A stretch of DNA of 64,000 bases, taken from contig NZ_AP027142.1 in the NCBI RefSeq assembly GCF_027925385.1, positions 1,470,001-1,534,000 of the forward strand, written 5' to 3'. The notes under the pieces were generated by a model that saw nothing but the letters and a program-made list of their open reading frames with translations, was not told where the DNA came from and ran no database searches. This document shows, in pieces, positions 36,482 through 56,758 of the stretch. The position numbers and the translations under genes are program-made. This DNA comes from Methylocystis iwaonis. Lineage in GTDB: Bacteria > Pseudomonadota > Alphaproteobacteria > Rhizobiales > Beijerinckiaceae. Numbering within the stretch: the first letter of the stretch is position 1; the number at the start of each line of letters is the position of its first letter.

Positions 36482-36784
36482 CTATTTCCTCCGAAGCGGG
36501 CGCGTCTGGGGCGCGCGTTTTTTGGTCTCTTTAGCGGAAAAGCGCCGGTTCGTCGCGGTCTTTCATTTTTCAAATTGCCCCATTGTGAAAAACCATATCA
36601 GGCGGTTGCAATTTTGTGCAGCCGGGGTAACTTGATGCCCGCCAACTGGATTACGTGGCCGGGCGGCGGCGCAAGGGCTAGCAATAAAGCCCACGCCGTA
36701 AGTTAAGCGTTCGATGCGTAACGGCAGAACTCGAATACCCTGCGGAGTGCTCAGGTCCGCCGCATCTCCTGGGTCCGTGGGGTT

Positions 36785-36863
36785 GGCCGGCTGACGATGG
36801 TTGGAGTGGCCTCCTTGAAGCCATTGTCAGTCGGCCGCCTTCATCCTGTTGGATGAAGGCGGT
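36785..36863 (+). ncRNA. Candidate structured RNA (two strong adjacent hairpins)
   Basis: Stem 1 pairs 36785-36800 with 36821-36836 (GGCCGGCTGAC... with ...GTCAGTCGGCC; 16 pairs counting two G-U). Its 20-base loop carries an inner GGAG/CTCC pair. Stem 2, 36835-36846 with 36851-36862, is 12 perfect pairs (CCGCCTTCATCC / GGATGAAGGCGG) closed by TGTT. A possible promoter is TTGCAA...TAACTT around 36607-36634. There is no T-tract, so strand and identity are unsure. It could also be a mobile-element end. The rest of 36482-36961 shows no gene. Confidence 0.35.
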
Positions 36864-49498: not shown

Positions 49499-52207
49499 TT
49501 AAGCCCGGCGCCGGTGGCGCCCGCCGGGCTTTTCACCGGCCGGGCCGGTGCGCGGCAGGAGCTGGGTCAGCGGGGCAGGCGCGCCATGTTGCGTGAGCAG
49601 CGCTTCCATGCCCGCGGCGTCGAGCGGGCGGCTGAACAGAAAGCCCTGCGCTTCCTCGCAGCCTAAACCCTTCAAAAACTCGGCTTGAGCCGCAGTTTCG
49701 ATTCCCTCCGCCAGGACTTTCAGATGCAGGCTGTGGCCCAGCGCGACGATCGCGCGGGTGATCGCCGCTTCATTCTCGCCGCTGGGAAGATCGGAGACGA
49801 AGGAGCGGTCGATCTTCAGCTTATTGACGGGCAGGCGTTTCAGATAGGCCAGGGAGGATTGCCCCGTTCCGAAATCGTCGATCGCCAGCGATACGCCGCA
49901 AGAGCGAAGCCCGTCGAGAACTTTCACGTTCTTCTGGGCTTGCCGCATGACATAGGTCTCGGTGATCTCTAGCTCGAGAAATTTGGACGGCAATCCCGTC
50001 TCGACCAGGACATCCGCCACGAGGCCGACGAGATCCGAGCGCTCGATCTGCACGCCGGAAATATTCACGGCGATGCGATGCAGCCCCAATCCCTTGCGCA
50101 TCCATTCCATTGCCTGGCGGCAGGCGGCGCGCAGCGCCCATTCGCCGAGCTGCGTTATCAGGCTCGTCTCTTCGGCGATGGGAATGAATTTATCGGGCGG
50201 AATGATCCCGCGCTCGGGGTGGCGCCAGCGCAAGAGCGCCTCGGAGCCGACGAGTCTTCCGTCGGCCAGATCGACTTGCGGCTGATAGTTCAGGAACAGC
50301 TCGCCCTGTTCCAGCGCCTTGCGCAGCTCGCCTTCCAGGAATTGCCGCTCCTGCGCCTGATCGGTCAGATGCGATCTGTAGAACAGATATTTGCCGCGCC
50401 CTTCCTCCTTGGCTTGATACATCGCGAGATCGGCGTTCTTGATCAGCGTCGCAGAGTCTTCGCCGTCGCCAGGATAGCAGCTCAGGCCGATCGACGCGCC
50501 GACCTCCAGCCGATGGCCTTGCACGATGAAGGGGCTGGATAAAACCGCGATGATCTTGTGGGCGACCTCCTGGCCGTCCTCCGGACCTTGGGTGTTTTGC
50601 AGCAGCACGACGAATTCGTCGCCGCCCAAACGGGCGATCATGGCGCCCTGCCGCAGGTTCTGCATCAACCGCCGCGCGACGGCGCGCAAAAGCTCGTCGC
50701 CGATGGGGTGGCCCAGGCTGTCATTGATATATTTGAACCGATCGAGGTCGAGAAAGAGCAGACACATTTTTCTCCCGGTCCGATGAGCCAATTTCGTGGC
50801 CTGCTCGCAGCGTTCGTTGAAGAGCTGGCGGTTGGGAAGATCGGTGAGGGAGTCGTAATAGGCCAAATGGTGGATATGCGCCGCCGAACGCTTCTGCTCG
50901 GTCAGATCGTAGAAGACGCTGATGTAGTTCTTCACGCTGCCGTCGCCGCCGCGCACCGCCGAAATATTCTGCCAAAGCGGGATGCTGTCGCCGTCCTTGC
51001 GGCGATCCCAGATTTCGCCGTGCCATTCGCCCTCGCTCTTCAGCTTGCTCCAAAGCTGCTTGAAGAAGGCGGCGCTATGCCGTTTCGATCTGAAGATATT
51101 CGTTCTCTTGCCGATGACGTCGTCGGGGGCGTAACCGAGAATACGGCTGAACGCGGGATTGACCTTGATGATCCGCGCCTCTGCGTCGGTGATCACCACG
51201 CCGTTCAGGCTGGTTTCGAAAACGCTGGCCGCCAGGCTCAACTGCTCGTCGGTCTGCCGCTGGGCGGTGACGTCCTGCAGGGTTCCGTTCGCCCGTACTG
51301 GTCTTCCGTTTTCGTCGCAGAGCGTCACGCCCCGGAGCTGCGCCCATTTTATCCTGCCGCCCGAGAGACGGAGGCGGCAGCTTGCGTTGAAAAGGCGACG
51401 GTCGCGGATCGACGCCTGGAAGGCTTCGTCCACCGCCTGGCGGTCCTCGGGATGGATGATTGCGAGACAATCGTCGTATCGTCGTGGCAGCGCGCTCGTC
51501 TCGCAGATATGGGCCATTTCCTCGGAACGATAGATCACCTCATTCGTGGTCAGATCGACTTCCCAGCGGCCGATTTGGGCGATGCGCTGCGCTTCCCTTA
51601 GCTCCCGCTCGCTGTCGAGCAGCGCGTCATGTTGCTTCTTGATTGCGGTGATGTCGGTGGCGCAGACGACAGCCCCTTCCTCCTTGCCCTTGGGGTCGTG
51701 CTGGAGGGTCGCCTCCAGCCAGTAGAAGCGATACTGGCCGTCTTTCGCGAGGAGCCGATGTTCGGCCGCATAGGAGCCTGAGCCGCGCACGCGCTCGAAC
51801 AATGGCGAATGCGCCGGCCAGGGCAGGCGGGGGAGCGATTGCTCGAGCCGGCGCCTTTCCTCCGGCGGCAGCCATTCGTCGAGGACGCGCTCCGCGATCT
51901 CTCCCTCCGGCGCGCATAGATCGACGGAGAAGCGACGATTGACCTGGCCGATCCGTCCCTCGGGTCCGAGAACGATCAGCAGGGCGCTGGACGTGTCCAT
52001 CACGCGCTGGGTGAAGGTCGCCAGATTGGCCTGCCGCTGATTGGCCTCCTGCAGGGCCTCCGCCTGCAGCTCCATCGTGCGCAGCATCTCGTCCGTCTGC
52101 GCGGCGTCGAGGCTCATCTGCTCCTGAATGGCGGCGTTGGCGAGGCGGAGCGACTCGACCTCGGCGCGCAGGCGTTCCACTTCTTGTGTGAGCGCGTCTT
52201 CACTCAT
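49499..52207 (-). CDS. Cytosolic coiled-coil, triple PAS, GGDEF, EAL protein; output of the hydrogenase sensor
   Basis: A soluble protein of about 902 residues that probably makes and/or degrades cyclic-di-GMP. An N-terminal coiled coil (about residues 4-65) is followed by three PAS domains (about 70-195, 205-320, 330-445), the last with VVITDAEARIIKVNPAFSRI. GGDEF follows (ARLGGDEF, motif intact near 530) and then EAL (SEALLRWRHPERG, intact near 658, with ITETYV, DDFGTGQSS and AEGIET). There are no membrane helices and no RxxD inhibitory site. It overlaps the maturation protease by eight bases (ATGAGTGA), so it is coupled to the hydrogenase operon. An ATG nine bases earlier (52216) is equally possible. 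In hydrogenase sensors a PAS protein typically receives the signal. Confidence 0.92.
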   Translation of the reverse strand: MSEDALTQEVERLRAEVESLRLANAAIQEQMSLDAAQTDEMLRTMELQAEALQEANQRQANLATFTQRVMDTSSALLIVLGPEGRIGQVNRRFSVDLCAPEGEIAERVLDEWLPPEERRRLEQSLPRLPWPAHSPLFERVRGSGSYAAEHRLLAKDGQYRFYWLEATLQHDPKGKEEGAVVCATDITAIKKQHDALLDSERELREAQRIAQIGRWEVDLTTNEVIYRSEEMAHICETSALPRRYDDCLAIIHPEDRQAVDEAFQASIRDRRLFNASCRLRLSGGRIKWAQLRGVTLCDENGRPVRANGTLQDVTAQRQTDEQLSLAASVFETSLNGVVITDAEARIIKVNPAFSRILGYAPDDVIGKRTNIFRSKRHSAAFFKQLWSKLKSEGEWHGEIWDRRKDGDSIPLWQNISAVRGGDGSVKNYISVFYDLTEQKRSAAHIHHLAYYDSLTDLPNRQLFNERCEQATKLAHRTGRKMCLLFLDLDRFKYINDSLGHPIGDELLRAVARRLMQNLRQGAMIARLGGDEFVVLLQNTQGPEDGQEVAHKIIAVLSSPFIVQGHRLEVGASIGLSCYPGDGEDSATLIKNADLAMYQAKEEGRGKYLFYRSHLTDQAQERQFLEGELRKALEQGELFLNYQPQVDLADGRLVGSEALLRWRHPERGIIPPDKFIPIAEETSLITQLGEWALRAACRQAMEWMRKGLGLHRIAVNISGVQIERSDLVGLVADVLVETGLPSKFLELEITETYVMRQAQKNVKVLDGLRSCGVSLAIDDFGTGQSSLAYLKRLPVNKLKIDRSFVSDLPSGENEAAITRAIVALGHSLHLKVLAEGIETAAQAEFLKGLGCEEAQGFLFSRPLDAAGMEALLTQHGAPAPLTQLLPRTGPAGEKPGGRHRRRA

Positions 52208-52679
52208 GGCGGTCATTCTCGAAATAGGCGCCGAGCAGCATGGCGACCTCGTCCACGGCGCGCGCTACCGGCTCTGAAAGCCCAATGTGAAATGGCGTAA
52301 TAGTCTCGACTTCCGCCCCGATGATCTTAATGGCCGGGGAGGTTTCGGGAAATGCGGCGAGCGCGCGCAGGACATAGCCGAGGCCAAGCCCGTGGGCTGC
52401 GGGCGTCGCTTCTTCCATGATCATGGCGAGGGAGGGCCGATGCACGCGGCCGGGCTTTCCTGCGGGCGCCAGGGCGTCGACGATGACGACTTCGTCGCAG
52501 TCCTCGAAGAGCGCCAGCGCCGCCGGGCCGGGCGCGCCAGCTTCCGTCAGGCGCAGATCGGGCGGGCGCTCGCGCGCCGCCAGCCGTTCATAGACCGCCG
52601 GGCCGAAGCCGTCGTCGCCATGCAGCGGATTGCCGAAGCAGACGATATGGCGCCGGATGATGGAAGGACTCTGGTTCAT
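52200..52679 (-). CDS. Hydrogenase maturation endopeptidase (HupW/HybD-like)
   Basis: A 159-residue nickel-dependent protease that trims the C-terminal tail of the hydrogenase large subunit after metal insertion. The core motif is IVCFGNPLHGDDGFGPAVYERL (about residues 13-34). Further metal-ligand regions are DEVVIVDALAPAGKPG (Asp) and PAAHGLGLGYVLRAL (His). ATG 52679 overlaps the large-subunit stop by four bases. The large subunit keeps a 12-residue tail to be cut, so the pair is self-consistent. Confidence 0.92.
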   Translation of the reverse strand: MNQSPSIIRRHIVCFGNPLHGDDGFGPAVYERLAARERPPDLRLTEAGAPGPAALALFEDCDEVVIVDALAPAGKPGRVHRPSLAMIMEEATPAAHGLGLGYVLRALAAFPETSPAIKIIGAEVETITPFHIGLSEPVARAVDEVAMLLGAYFENDRHE

Positions 52680-54193
52680 GCGTTGAAATGAACCTTCCTC
52701 CCAGTGTCCAGCATATGGACCGTGCAGACCAGGCAGGGATCGTGGGAGCGGATGATGTGGCCGATCTCGACCGGATCGTCCGGGTCGCGCACCTCGACGC
52801 CGACCAGGCTCTGCTCCCAATGGCCGGGCTGGCCGGCGCTGTCGCGGGGCGAGGCGTTCCAGGCGGTGGGCGTGACGATCTGATATTTTTCGATGACGCC
52901 GTCTTTGATCTTGATCCAGTGGCCGAGCGCGCCACGCGCCGCCATGATCAGGCCGTAGCCGTCGCCATCTGCTTCATTGGCGGGCGGAATGAAGTGCTCG
53001 CCGGAGAGATCGGCGGCAAGTTGGTCGAGCATGCGCCGCGCATGCAAGAATTCATGGGCGATGCGCCGCGCCCGCGCGAATTGCCGCAACCAGGCGCCGC
53101 CGCCCTCCAAAGCGTTGAGCGAGGCGATCAAAGGATCGCCGCCGATAAGCAATTCCGCGAGCGGGCCGGTCTGGACGACCTTGTCGCCATAGCGCGGCGC
53201 CTTGGACCATGTGTAGCGGTCGCCGCCGGGCTCGTAATTGGGGATGGTTTCGCCGTTCCACGGATGCCTGCCGCCCTCATAGTGCCGGAACCAGGAATGG
53301 CGCACATGCTCATTGATCTGGGTCTGATCGAGAGGCGCAATGGCCCCCGTCTCGCCGTCGTAAAAGCCCGACGCCAACAGAGTTGCATCGGCGTCGGTCG
53401 TCGCAGGATCGCGCCAGGCGCCGTAGCTCAACATATGTTTGGCGCCCGCCGCCGAGCGATGAAGCCCCAGCGCGCGCACGCAACGGCTGAGCATGCCAAG
53501 CGCGCTCGCCGCATGGGCGGGCGCGTCGAGCCAGGCGAAATAGTCCTCCGCTTTGTCGAGCGCCAGCCAGCGCTCGAGCGGCGCGCCGATGATGCGCTGC
53601 TCATACCAGCGTTGCGCGTCGTCCAGCACGGCGCGGCAGGCGGAAATCCGGCGCAGATCGGCGGGAAGCGTCACGCCGCCGGGCGCCATATAGGAGGAAT
53701 GCGGCCACTGTCCGCCGAAATGCGCCACGATCTGCACGACCTTCCGCGTCACCGCGAGAGTTTCGAGATAGATCGCGCCGCGAAACGGCTCGAAGGCCGC
53801 CATCATTTCGTCGAACCAGGGTTCGGCGGCGTAGCGCGGATTGCAGAAGTCCGGCGTAAAGAACAGAAAGGTCTGGCGCAGATCGTTCTGAATGCCTTCC
53901 GCCATCAGGCAGAGATTGCGGATGCGCGTGGCGTTGGGAGGCGGGACGGCGCCCCAGGCGCGCTCCAAAGCGAGCGCCGACGAATAAAGATGCGCGGTTC
54001 CGCAAATGCCGCAGACTCGCGGCGTGATCACAAGGGCGTCGCGCGGCGCCCGGCCGATGAGAATCTGCTCGAAGCCGCGATACATCGTGCCGATGGTGCG
54101 GGCTTCCGCCACCACGCCGTCGTCCAGCGTCACGGCGAGCTCGAGATCGCCCTCGACGCGGTTGAGGCTGACATTGAGCTCGACGCGCGCCAT
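52676..54193 (-). CDS. [NiFe]-hydrogenase large subunit, group 2 (HupL-like), probable H2 sensor
   Basis: A 505-residue catalytic subunit that holds the NiFe(CN)2CO site. The N-terminal ligands are Cys61 and Cys64 in PRVCGICGTAH, and the C-terminal ones Cys487 and Cys490 in DPCLVCTVH. The tail after His493 (12 residues, MLDTGRKVHFNA) should be removed by the adjacent protease. NRVEGD near the start replaces the more common RIEGH. The sequence resembles cyanobacterial uptake HupL, placing it in group 2. It starts one base after the small-subunit stop. The HupV type of sensor usually lacks a cleavable tail; this one keeps it. Maturation genes hypA-F are not in this window. Confidence 0.93.
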   Translation of the reverse strand: MARVELNVSLNRVEGDLELAVTLDDGVVAEARTIGTMYRGFEQILIGRAPRDALVITPRVCGICGTAHLYSSALALERAWGAVPPPNATRIRNLCLMAEGIQNDLRQTFLFFTPDFCNPRYAAEPWFDEMMAAFEPFRGAIYLETLAVTRKVVQIVAHFGGQWPHSSYMAPGGVTLPADLRRISACRAVLDDAQRWYEQRIIGAPLERWLALDKAEDYFAWLDAPAHAASALGMLSRCVRALGLHRSAAGAKHMLSYGAWRDPATTDADATLLASGFYDGETGAIAPLDQTQINEHVRHSWFRHYEGGRHPWNGETIPNYEPGGDRYTWSKAPRYGDKVVQTGPLAELLIGGDPLIASLNALEGGGAWLRQFARARRIAHEFLHARRMLDQLAADLSGEHFIPPANEADGDGYGLIMAARGALGHWIKIKDGVIEKYQIVTPTAWNASPRDSAGQPGHWEQSLVGVEVRDPDDPVEIGHIIRSHDPCLVCTVHMLDTGRKVHFNA

Positions 54194-54194
54194 G

Positions 54195-55136
54195 TCAAAC
54201 GTCCATCTTCTTGTTTCGGACGCGCGCGGGCGCGGCGGCGCGGGCGAGATTCTTATAGGCCATGTAGCGGGCGCGCTCGACGCCGACCGGCAGGCGCAGC
54301 GGAATGTCGCCGATCTTCGCCGTTGCGAAGAGGTCCGTTTCGCGCGGGAAATTGGGCGCCGTGCAGCCGAAGCAGGGGACGCCCGCCCGCGTCTTGCTGT
54401 TGACGCCGTTCCAAAGATCGCTGTTGCAGACCGCCTGGGTCAGCGGGCCCTGGCAGCCCAGATTATAGAACAGGCAGGCGCGACCGCCGAGCTCCAAGTC
54501 CTCGATGTCATATTCGTGGTATTCGTTCCGGGTGCAGCCCTGATGCGCCAGCGTGCTGAAAAAGGCGCTCGGCCGGTTCAGCGGATCGAGGGCGAGCGGC
54601 AGGTCCTGGGCGATCGCCTCCAGCGTCTGGGTCATGGCGTGGGGATGGGCCGGGCAGCCGGCGATATTGATGACCGGCAGGCCCGAACCGGCGCGCCAGT
54701 CCGCCGGCAAAAGGCCGCCCGGCGTCTCCCGGTCGAATTGCAGGCCGATGCAATCGGCGGGGTTGGGGCTCGCCGCGTGAACGCCGCCAAAACTGGCGCA
54801 CGTGCCCATGGCGACGACGATGTTTGCGCGCCGGGCGAGCGCGCGCGTGATCTCCATACGCGCCCGGCCCCGGTAACTGTCGTAAAGGCCGGTGCCGCGC
54901 GGCGCGGTGACGACGCTGCCCTCGACGCAGAGGATGTCGAGCTTTTGGGCGCCCGACGCGATGTTTTCGATCAGCGCGTCGAAACGCTTCATCGGCGCAT
55001 GCGAGAGGGAGGGGTGCCAGAGCAGCTCGATCCCGCAGGAGGCGAATAATTGCTCGAAGCTCGGCGCTTCAGCGCTCAGAATTGCAAGCGAGTCGCCGCC
55101 GCAGGCCCCGGTCTGCAACCAGAACAAGGTTTTCAC
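54195..55136 (-). CDS. [NiFe]-hydrogenase small subunit, group 2 (HupS-like), soluble
   Basis: A 313-residue electron-transfer subunit with GTG start (GAGAG upstream) and no twin-arginine signal, so the enzyme is cytosolic. Proximal cluster region: FWLQTGACGGDSL with Cys12 but Asp15 where many families have Cys; Cys113 (GTCASFGG) and Cys161 (AGCPAHP) complete it. Distal: His198, Cys201, Cys221, Cys228. Medial: Cys237, Cys255, Cys258 in SKTRAGVPCFGC. The layout and HPSLSHAP, EGSVVTAP and CIGLQFDRE blocks match cyanobacterial HupS. No membrane anchor is present. It heads the tightly packed hydrogenase, protease and PAS-GGDEF-EAL set. Confidence 0.93.
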   Translation of the reverse strand: MKTLFWLQTGACGGDSLAILSAEAPSFEQLFASCGIELLWHPSLSHAPMKRFDALIENIASGAQKLDILCVEGSVVTAPRGTGLYDSYRGRARMEITRALARRANIVVAMGTCASFGGVHAASPNPADCIGLQFDRETPGGLLPADWRAGSGLPVINIAGCPAHPHAMTQTLEAIAQDLPLALDPLNRPSAFFSTLAHQGCTRNEYHEYDIEDLELGGRACLFYNLGCQGPLTQAVCNSDLWNGVNSKTRAGVPCFGCTAPNFPRETDLFATAKIGDIPLRLPVGVERARYMAYKNLARAAAPARVRNKKMDV

Positions 55137-55284
55137 GAGCGCCTCTCTCCATCACGCGCACGCCGCGATTAGGCGCTCAAAAGCTTGAGACTTCTTGAAT
55201 GGTTTAGCTAGCCCTAAAATTCGCGGCTTGGTTGAGTAAGGCCGTTCGGTTGCTGTCCGGCGCCAGCGAACGCCGTTTTTTAAA

Positions 55285-56013
55285 TCACGCGATCCCGTCA
55301 AAAAGCGCGGCGGCCTCGCCGAGATCGAATTCGGCGATGAGCGCGGGAGACAAAGGGTCTTCGCCGCCGAGCCAGGACTCGATCGCCGCGGGAGCCCGCA
55401 AGGCGATCTCCAGCGCTTTGGTGATCTCGTATAGACCCCAGGCGAGGCCCGACTGGCGCATGGCGTTCATCATGGCGTTTTGCACGAGACTGCGCACGAC
55501 CAGATGCGGCGTCGATACGGTCGCCTCGTCTCCATCTCCGTCGGCCGCCGAAATGCAGGCGAGCTTATCCAACGCCGCATGACCGCGGCACGCAAGCGGG
55601 CGGAGCCGATAGGCGAGGCAGAGGTCTTTCTCGATCAGCGGGCAATAATGCTTGGCCGCCAAGCGCGAGGCTTCATCCAGGCTTCCAACCGTATTCGCCG
55701 CCTCGCCGATGCGGCGCGGAAGGTCGATCCCCCGCGCCTCGAACGCCGGGGCGTTGACGTCCACGAAACGGGCCAGCAGGAAAACCTCGGGCGCCGTCGC
55801 CACGACGCGAAGACGGCAGCACGCCGCGCATTCGCCATGACAGGCGATCGCCGGCGCGCCTTCGGCCTGGATGACGACATTTTTCTCGAAAAGGTCGAAA
55901 GCCTGCGCGCAAAGGGCGCCGACGAGATCAGCCTGGTTGCGTCGCGCGGCGACCGTATCGCCGAACGCCCGGCTTGTCGCCCGGAAGAAGGAAGCGGGCC
56001 CGTCCTTGCGCAT
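55285..56013 (-). CDS. YkgJ-family cysteine cluster protein
   Basis: A 242-residue cytosolic protein of the YkgJ/CxxCC family, proposed to bind zinc or iron. The Cys motif is CHGECAACCRLR (about residues 59-70), and a second group appears as YCPLIEKDLCLAYRLRPLACRGH (about 123-145). The helical C-terminus resembles nothing else known to me. It lies 148 bases upstream of the hydrogenase small subunit on the same strand, with no clear terminator between, so it may belong to the operon. Its role is unknown; metal supply or electron transfer would be guesses. Confidence 0.82.
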   Translation of the reverse strand: MRKDGPASFFRATSRAFGDTVAARRNQADLVGALCAQAFDLFEKNVVIQAEGAPAIACHGECAACCRLRVVATAPEVFLLARFVDVNAPAFEARGIDLPRRIGEAANTVGSLDEASRLAAKHYCPLIEKDLCLAYRLRPLACRGHAALDKLACISAADGDGDEATVSTPHLVVRSLVQNAMMNAMRQSGLAWGLYEITKALEIALRAPAAIESWLGGEDPLSPALIAEFDLGEAAALFDGIA

Positions 56014-56686: not shown

Positions 56687-56758
56687 CTCCGACTTCCAGC
56701 AACATGGGCGCCAGGGCGAGGCCCTCATAGCATCTGCGGTTGAACAGCGCGCATCGGG

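Follow-up and report, generated by a model that had tools for sequence, protein, structure and literature searches.

How a sensory hydrogenase signals the presence of H2 to its partner protein is the question raised by an operon of Methylocystis iwaonis, which we analysed in a 64,000-nucleotide stretch of contig NZ_AP027142.1 (positions 1,470,001 to 1,534,000, forward strand; hereafter the window, whose own numbering is used). Minus-strand open reading frames (ORFs) for a [NiFe]-hydrogenase small subunit, a large subunit, a maturation protease and a PAS sensor with GGDEF and EAL domains adjoin end to end, with a YkgJ-type gene upstream (Table 1). We consider it probable that this operon encodes a group 2c H2 sensor acting on cyclic-di-GMP. 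The question is made testable by relatives in which the same sensor module is joined to a Rieske-type domain, a protease or a different output, in effect natural experiments.

The operon and the class of its hydrogenase

The original prediction, made from the DNA letters, had the genes abutting from the small subunit on, and the junction DNA agreed exactly: a 1-base gap between the subunit genes, a 4-base overlap (ATGA) between large subunit and protease, and an 8-base overlap (ATGAGTGA) between protease and sensor, provided that the second ATG (52207) is the start. Pfam matched NiFeSe_Hases (1.9e-86), Oxidored_q6 (1.3e-25), NiFe_hyd_SSU_C (5.7e-23) and HycI (2.3e-14), and in the sensor protein EAL (4.1e-75), GGDEF (7.8e-50) and several PAS models; the protease scored 102 bits with TIGR00072 (cut-off 47). 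The gene order is conserved across genomes. Among 80 related loci, the best of 245 when ranked by how closely their small subunits resemble that of the window, the small subunit gene was followed by an adjacent large subunit gene in 80/80, and the protease gene lay directly after the large subunit in all 76 loci where it was found, the remaining 4/80 being cut. The closest named record, Methylocystis sp. Sn-Cys (L009), was 98-99% identical across six proteins.

The small subunit opens with (V/M)KTLFWLQTGACGGD at the position of the mature N-terminus and so lacks a Tat signal; no anchor helix was seen by eye, in keeping with the earlier claim that both signal and anchor are missing. The best solved match for both subunits was by far 'Hydrogenase-2' (7uus/7uur), which we take to be Huc of M. 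smegmatis. Large-subunit trees, one quick (91 rows) and one careful (33 rows), included five references labelled 2a, four labelled 2b and four from group 1, the labels being our own from annotation and neighbouring genes; an unannotated 2b candidate (L101) was not used as a reference. The window's large subunit fell in one clade apart from all of these (78 rows, SH-aLRT 100 in the quick tree; 20 rows, 100/100 in the careful tree), and in neither tree did it group with the 2b HoxC/HupV references. The clade was sister to 2a and not inside it, with support of 91 (quick) and 90/86 (careful), under the starred level. A placement away from uptake enzymes, on which the prediction had staked its sensor, stood with regard to the group 1 respiratory references, while the nearest references were the 2a uptake enzymes (90/86). 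Both trees carried a long-branch warning; with the 2a rows removed, the clade still formed one side of a branch (99).

Motifs also set the clade apart. The proximal-cluster motif is C-x-G-[DE] in 81/81 clade small subunits, with Asp or Glu at the last position, where the 2a references have C[NS]GN (Asn in 3/3 aligned) and the 2b references CGGC (2/2 covering the site, of 3 aligned). A C-terminal extension of 12-16 residues was present in all 78 clade large subunits with a visible end (81 in total). Together with the protease gene, this tail is shared with the 2a references, unlike those of 2b, which end at CTVH without an extension (4/4); group 2b and 2d large subunits are also described as tail-less in PMC7294309 (cited, like the other papers given here by PMC accession, from excerpts). 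Methylobacter tundripaludum SV96 (L031) falls within the clade, and the same species is the best match of the group 2c sequence in PMC4853749. Through this link we identify the clade, from its sequences, as group 2c, in trees that held no HydDB-labelled, 2d or 2e references. The group 2c L2 motif printed in PMC4853749 is SFDxCLVCTVH, with H for F accepted there in Thiomargarita; the window's SHDPCLVCTVH matches every named position except for H in place of F. HydDB (PMC5037454) lists group 2c as 'diguanylate cyclase-linked (putative)', and this is the sensory group 2 subtype with such neighbours to which the original prediction had referred.

One input module, two outputs and varied additions

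The partner gene after the protease was readable in 72 loci, giving n = 73 with the window; loci dropped because of contig ends were L010, L021, L024, L029, L030, L037, L051 and L052, and two frames are broken (L057 and L062). A clean model of 32 rows found a full N-terminal module, predicted to fold as a 60-residue helix plus a PAS domain (pLDDT 89.7), in 72/73 partners, window included; the broken L062 shows a partial module (columns 94-195), as does the cut L024. Because the 32 rows were taken from these same partners, the test was split by output class. A model from 13 GGDEF rows found the module in 36/37 non-GGDEF partners at no less than 101 bits, against 66 bits for the best control (HupT, HoxJ and other coil-PAS proteins), and a model from 19 non-GGDEF rows found it in 36/36 GGDEF-EAL partners at no less than 120 bits, against 83 bits. 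The module count is thus not circular, since each output-class model finds the module in the other class above every control. As a lone query, the window protein revealed the N-terminal stretch in 65/72 loci by our own count. E5, G73, N79, G163 and G167 are invariant in 32 sequences; the module bounds for this analysis, and for the distances reported below, came from an earlier model that had been grown on proteins later matched and had absorbed adjacent PAS domains.

In the window's partner, the analysis bore out the three PAS domains that had been predicted, and both catalytic motifs proved intact by eye: RLGGDEF in the GGDEF domain and SEALLRW, VNIS, EITET, DDFGTG, KID, AEGIET and EAQG in the EAL domain, read against the EAL catalytic set. 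At the inhibitory site ahead of GGDEF, RxxD is replaced by RQGA in the window and L009 and kept in the other 33 of 35 sequences (our own reading).

Outputs were assigned by motif for all partners; Pfam was also applied to the window and 23 relatives, and the two agreed in all 23 (8 GGDEF members besides the window, 15 kinases). GGDEF-EAL outputs account for 36/73 partners and histidine kinases for another 36/73, with L057 unclassified. The claim of a cyclic-di-GMP enzyme as partner consequently holds for the window and for 36/73, and does not extend to the 36/73 with a histidine kinase on the same module. L015 and L056 lack the EAL motif by pattern; Pfam finds EAL in both, L056 being cut by a contig end. 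The tested kinases carry receiver domains in 11/15 and an Hpt domain in 6/15. On the tree one output change is needed, and since one suffices we do not claim repeated swapping. Among the genes that follow the kinase in nine kinase-type loci, a receiver-kinase hybrid occurs only in L048 and L067 and a His_kinase protein in L061, and no cyclic-di-GMP domain was found. The two hybrids are Vibrionaceae receiver-histidine kinases that follow the coil-PAS kinase (L048 13218-14447 and L067 13120-14361, both plus strand).

What precedes the module is more variable: a Rieske-type CxH-x(n)-CxxH motif in 27/73 partners, a protease fused in frame in 14/73 and neither in 32/73, requiring at least five changes on the tree. 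The Rieske type occurs with GGDEF-EAL outputs (17), with kinases (9) and in L057, and the fused protease exclusively with kinases (14). PF00355 matched 27 of 28 Rieske stretches tested, of which 27 had been picked by motif and one (L137) had not, and all four ligands are invariant. A predicted Rieske stretch (pLDDT 77.5) had Rieske ferredoxins as its top matches in the PDB, the best E-value being only 3.5e-3. The protease-kinase fusions (L065, L068, L069, L073, L076, L077, L079-L081, L083-L087) come from hosts that include Thiorhodococcus, Imhoffiella, Dechloromonas and proteobacterial metagenome-assembled genomes (MAGs); Pfam found HycI in 7/7 fusions tested, and the L065 partner frame opens with the protease. 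A further kinase partner, in L047 (10913-13000, plus strand), has a Rieske-like N-terminus without the ligand pattern.

Specificity of the module was examined by whole-genome searches, which mostly scored a subset of first-look candidates. In a class survey (289 genomes, E ≤ 1e-12), the module matched in nine, the window's own genome at 1.7e-73 and the eight others at about 1e-13 to 1e-16, comprising four HupT-type kinases and four other PAS proteins. Three of the HupT-type matches lie directly before HupUV genes, and L110, 39-47% identical to HupT/HoxJ, lies on a separate contig. HupUV occurs in 5/289 of these genomes, one of which (G043) matched with another PAS protein, and 2c genes occur in the window's genome alone. 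A phylum survey (398 genomes, E ≤ 1e-22) returned the same genome, G299 and G305. The G299 locus (L137 3049-9103, plus strand) is a 2c operon with a Rieske-PAS-GGDEF-EAL partner and a small subunit 57% identical to that of the window; the G305 match is confined to module columns 29-194, and the 11 kb read there showed no hydrogenase gene. In a survey of relatives (61 genomes, E ≤ 1e-20), all four matches adjoin 2c genes, and a survey around G299 (48 genomes) yielded nothing beyond two matches already known. Across all surveys, module matches from column 1 at E ≤ 1e-20 adjoin 2c genes in 5/5 cases. The PAS protein L138 (2691-4889, minus strand) has a strong partial module match (columns 29-194) at 91-95 bits, higher than that of every HupT in the comparison; no hydrogenase gene was found across the 11 kb read. 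Within the genus (39 genomes), 2c small subunits occur in 5 and 2b in 11, with both in G678 (L141, L156), where the 2c operon and the 2b small subunit lie apart and would be useful for comparing both sensors in one cell.

Proposed signalling and rival explanations

In the mechanism that we infer, the small and large subunits would form a cytosolic dimer, matured by Hyp proteins whose genes lie outside the operon, and the operon's own protease would trim the large-subunit tail. The dimer would dock on the N-terminal coil-PAS of the GGDEF-EAL protein, in the manner attributed to HoxBC with HoxJ. Binding or oxidation of H2 would then alter the dimer's redox or conformational state, and the coil-PAS, reading that change, would shift the balance of GGDEF against EAL and hence the cyclic-di-GMP level. 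Adjacency, protease fusion and joint inheritance argue that partner and hydrogenase act together, module and large-subunit distances being correlated across 71 loci (L009 and L062 excluded; r = 0.92, with none of 999 permutations exceeding 0.11), and different outputs on a constant input module fit a sensor. In about a third of relatives a Rieske-type domain could accept hydrogenase electrons; its position before the module suggests a route by which H2-derived electrons enter some of the partners. Since this domain is missing from the window protein, we prefer direct-contact sensing there.

The direction of the effect is proposed with low confidence and by analogy: the window protein may show net phosphodiesterase activity in the absence of H2, which H2 would damp and thereby raise cyclic-di-GMP. 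The guess at net activity draws on the degenerate RxxD site and on the best NCBIfam models, of which the first five are phosphodiesterases, all under their cut-offs; for the sign we rely on HoxJ, a kinase that phosphorylates HoxA when H2 is absent (PMC10073562). If the operon works in this manner, methanotrophs and other bacteria would have their biofilm or motility state governed by H2. More tentatively, and with doubt outweighing conviction, the family could be a modular platform in which the coil-PAS reads the hydrogenase, Rieske domains admit electrons from H2 in roughly one member in three, the protease serves docking or quality control in others and the output is switched between cyclic-di-GMP and phosphorelay. 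To our knowledge, no signalling protein connected to a hydrogenase through an electron-transfer domain has been described before.

Several findings count against an H2 sensor. The nearest reference clade consists of uptake enzymes, and the tail and protease are uptake-like; the window's own partner has neither a Rieske-type domain nor a fused protease; a single output change makes no repeated pattern; and correlated distances are also expected from joint inheritance of one unit. Comparison with the kinases of regulatory hydrogenases gave no relief. A ten-sequence profile of the HupT/HoxJ N-terminus aligned with the module over 165 columns including the coil (hhalign 99.5), where the third PAS of the family to which the window protein belongs reached 97.8 with the coil not included. 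Single HupT/HoxJ sequences (four), however, scored 97.1-98.6 against 97.6-99.2 for six control coil-PAS proteins, L138 outscored all ten HupT/HoxJ in the profile test, and a coil-only profile separated them weakly. The class-survey tally of HupT-type proteins among non-self matches (4/9) at first seemed telling, and G043 is a counterexample. With HupT/HoxJ profile scores overlapping those of other coil-PAS proteins, we dropped a special kinship of the module with HoxJ/HupT, and these controls lowered our confidence in the sensor slightly.

The uptake-like features would suit a functional uptake enzyme for the recycling of H2, the cyclic-di-GMP enzyme sharing the operon for another reason. The moderately supported sister relation to 2a (91; 90/86), the match to 'Hydrogenase-2' and the C-terminal extension with protease, as in the 2a references, all favour it. 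Yet the partner module is retained while outputs vary, proteases and Rieske domains are fused to the partner, and no Rieske or HucE-type gene was present in the six window proteins scanned, and we judge this account unlikely. As a checkpoint on maturation or nickel, the partner might instead read hydrogenase processing and not H2. The presence of a protease gene directly after the large subunit in 76/76 loci, its fusion to the partner in 14/73 and the tail-less group 2b sensors (4/4 references; PMC7294309) are consistent with such a role, whereas the Rieske-type domains in 27/73 partners point to redox, and three 2a operons have a protease behind the large subunit with no such partner in the annotated stretch; a checkpoint is accordingly improbable in our estimation. 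Least credible is that the PAS domains sense oxygen or redox through a cofactor of their own, the hydrogenase being merely an electron source: the three PAS domains and the module's Foldseek neighbours, among them flavin-binding LOV, NifL and DosP, would fit, but in the module, which covers the first PAS only, His, Cys, Trp and Tyr are nowhere invariant across 32 sequences (best such column, Tyr in 22/32). An H2 sensor acting on cyclic-di-GMP is thus the reading that we retain.

Neighbouring genes and comparison with known systems

Table 1. Coordinates of the operon genes, their domains and the upstream YkgJ-type gene in the window.
Feature	Position	Strand	Basis
[NiFe]-hydrogenase small subunit, GTG start, CGGD proximal-cluster motif	54195..55136	-	Pfam
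[NiFe]-hydrogenase large subunit, L1 RVCGICGTAH, L2 SHDPCLVCTVH	52676..54193	-	Pfam, trees
Large-subunit C-terminal extension, 12 residues	52679..52714	-	Kept at 12-16 residues across the clade
Hydrogenase maturation protease (HycI family), ATG at 52679	52200..52679	-	Pfam, TIGR00072
Coil-PAS-PAS-PAS-GGDEF-EAL protein	49499..52207 (alternative start 52216)	-	Pfam, NCBIfam
Conserved input module, 60-residue helix + PAS, aa 15-208	51593..52174	-	Profile model, predicted fold
Second PAS (PF08447), aa 228-312	51281..51535	-	Pfam
Third PAS (PF08448), aa 336-443	50888..51211	-	Pfam
GGDEF domain, RLGGDEF intact, RxxD site degenerate (RQGA)	50393..50863	-	Pfam, motif reading
EAL domain, catalytic motifs intact by eye	49625..50329	-	Pfam
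YkgJ-type Cys cluster protein, outside conserved unit	55285..56013	-	Pfam CxxCxxCC

The YkgJ-type protein had been counted as a member of the circuit. Its CxxCxxCC match (4.5e-05) is barely above the Pfam cut-off, 148 bp separate its gene from the operon, and such a gene lies beside the operon in 1/80 loci (L009; at least 2 kb upstream readable in 71/80) and in two further genomes of the genus (G656 and G711). It was dropped for this poor conservation. Upstream of it, a truncated-globin gene (PF01152; 56264-56728, minus strand), next to the operon only in L009 and L143, contains, within the beginning of its ORF, a sigma-54-like site that departs from the pattern at one base (56698-56713, minus strand). 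Chance alone would give 23 matches to the sigma-54 pattern in the window, where 11 were counted, and promoter and terminator scans were at chance level. Distant from the operon, the window also encodes the small RNA EcpR1 (36735-36841, plus strand; Rfam RF02500, 98.4 bits against a gathering score of 60).

Elsewhere in the genome, PF00374 matched one full group 1-type and one group 3-type large subunit (types by our own reading), a HupK-like protein and, weakly, a homologue of the complex I 49-kDa subunit. The Hyp genes sit near the group 1 cluster. No HupUV was found in this genome, the only small subunits at E ≤ 1e-30 being that of the window and the one beside the group 1 enzyme.

The core idea that group 2c is linked to cyclic-di-GMP is already in print, as putative, in HydDB and again in PMC4853749, and the window locus is one more member of that named class. 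A shared module on two outputs, kinase outputs, Rieske additions and protease fusions were not found in the literature searched, in which few subscription journals are covered, nor was any paper there combining Rieske, diguanylate cyclase, hydrogenase and PAS domain; these features may have been described outside it.

Compared with HydDB group 2c, the window shares a group 2 enzyme adjoining a GGDEF-EAL protein, and L031 belongs to its clade; the difference is a kinase output in half of the partners here, and the excerpts of PMC5037454 make no mention of Rieske or protease additions to the partner. HupUV/HoxBC of group 2b resemble the window's enzyme in being a cytosolic dimer whose partner has a coil-PAS N-terminus. 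They differ in forming a separate clade, in lacking the C-terminal tail (4/4 references), in the proximal CGGC and in signalling to a histidine kinase, HupT/HoxJ, in place of a GGDEF-EAL protein. The parallel to HoxJ, as read from sequence, is one of layout and setting, not of demonstrated descent. Group 2a (Huc) is the nearest reference clade and has the tail and protease in common with the window, and differs in its proximal C[NS]GN (3/3 references). In M. smegmatis, HucE, which has a Rieske-type motif, is reported to be essential for H2 oxidation (PMC6883350), and this motif parallels the Rieske-type domain of 27/73 partners. HucE, however, is a separate NifU-like protein, whereas in the partners described here the domain lies within a PAS sensor.

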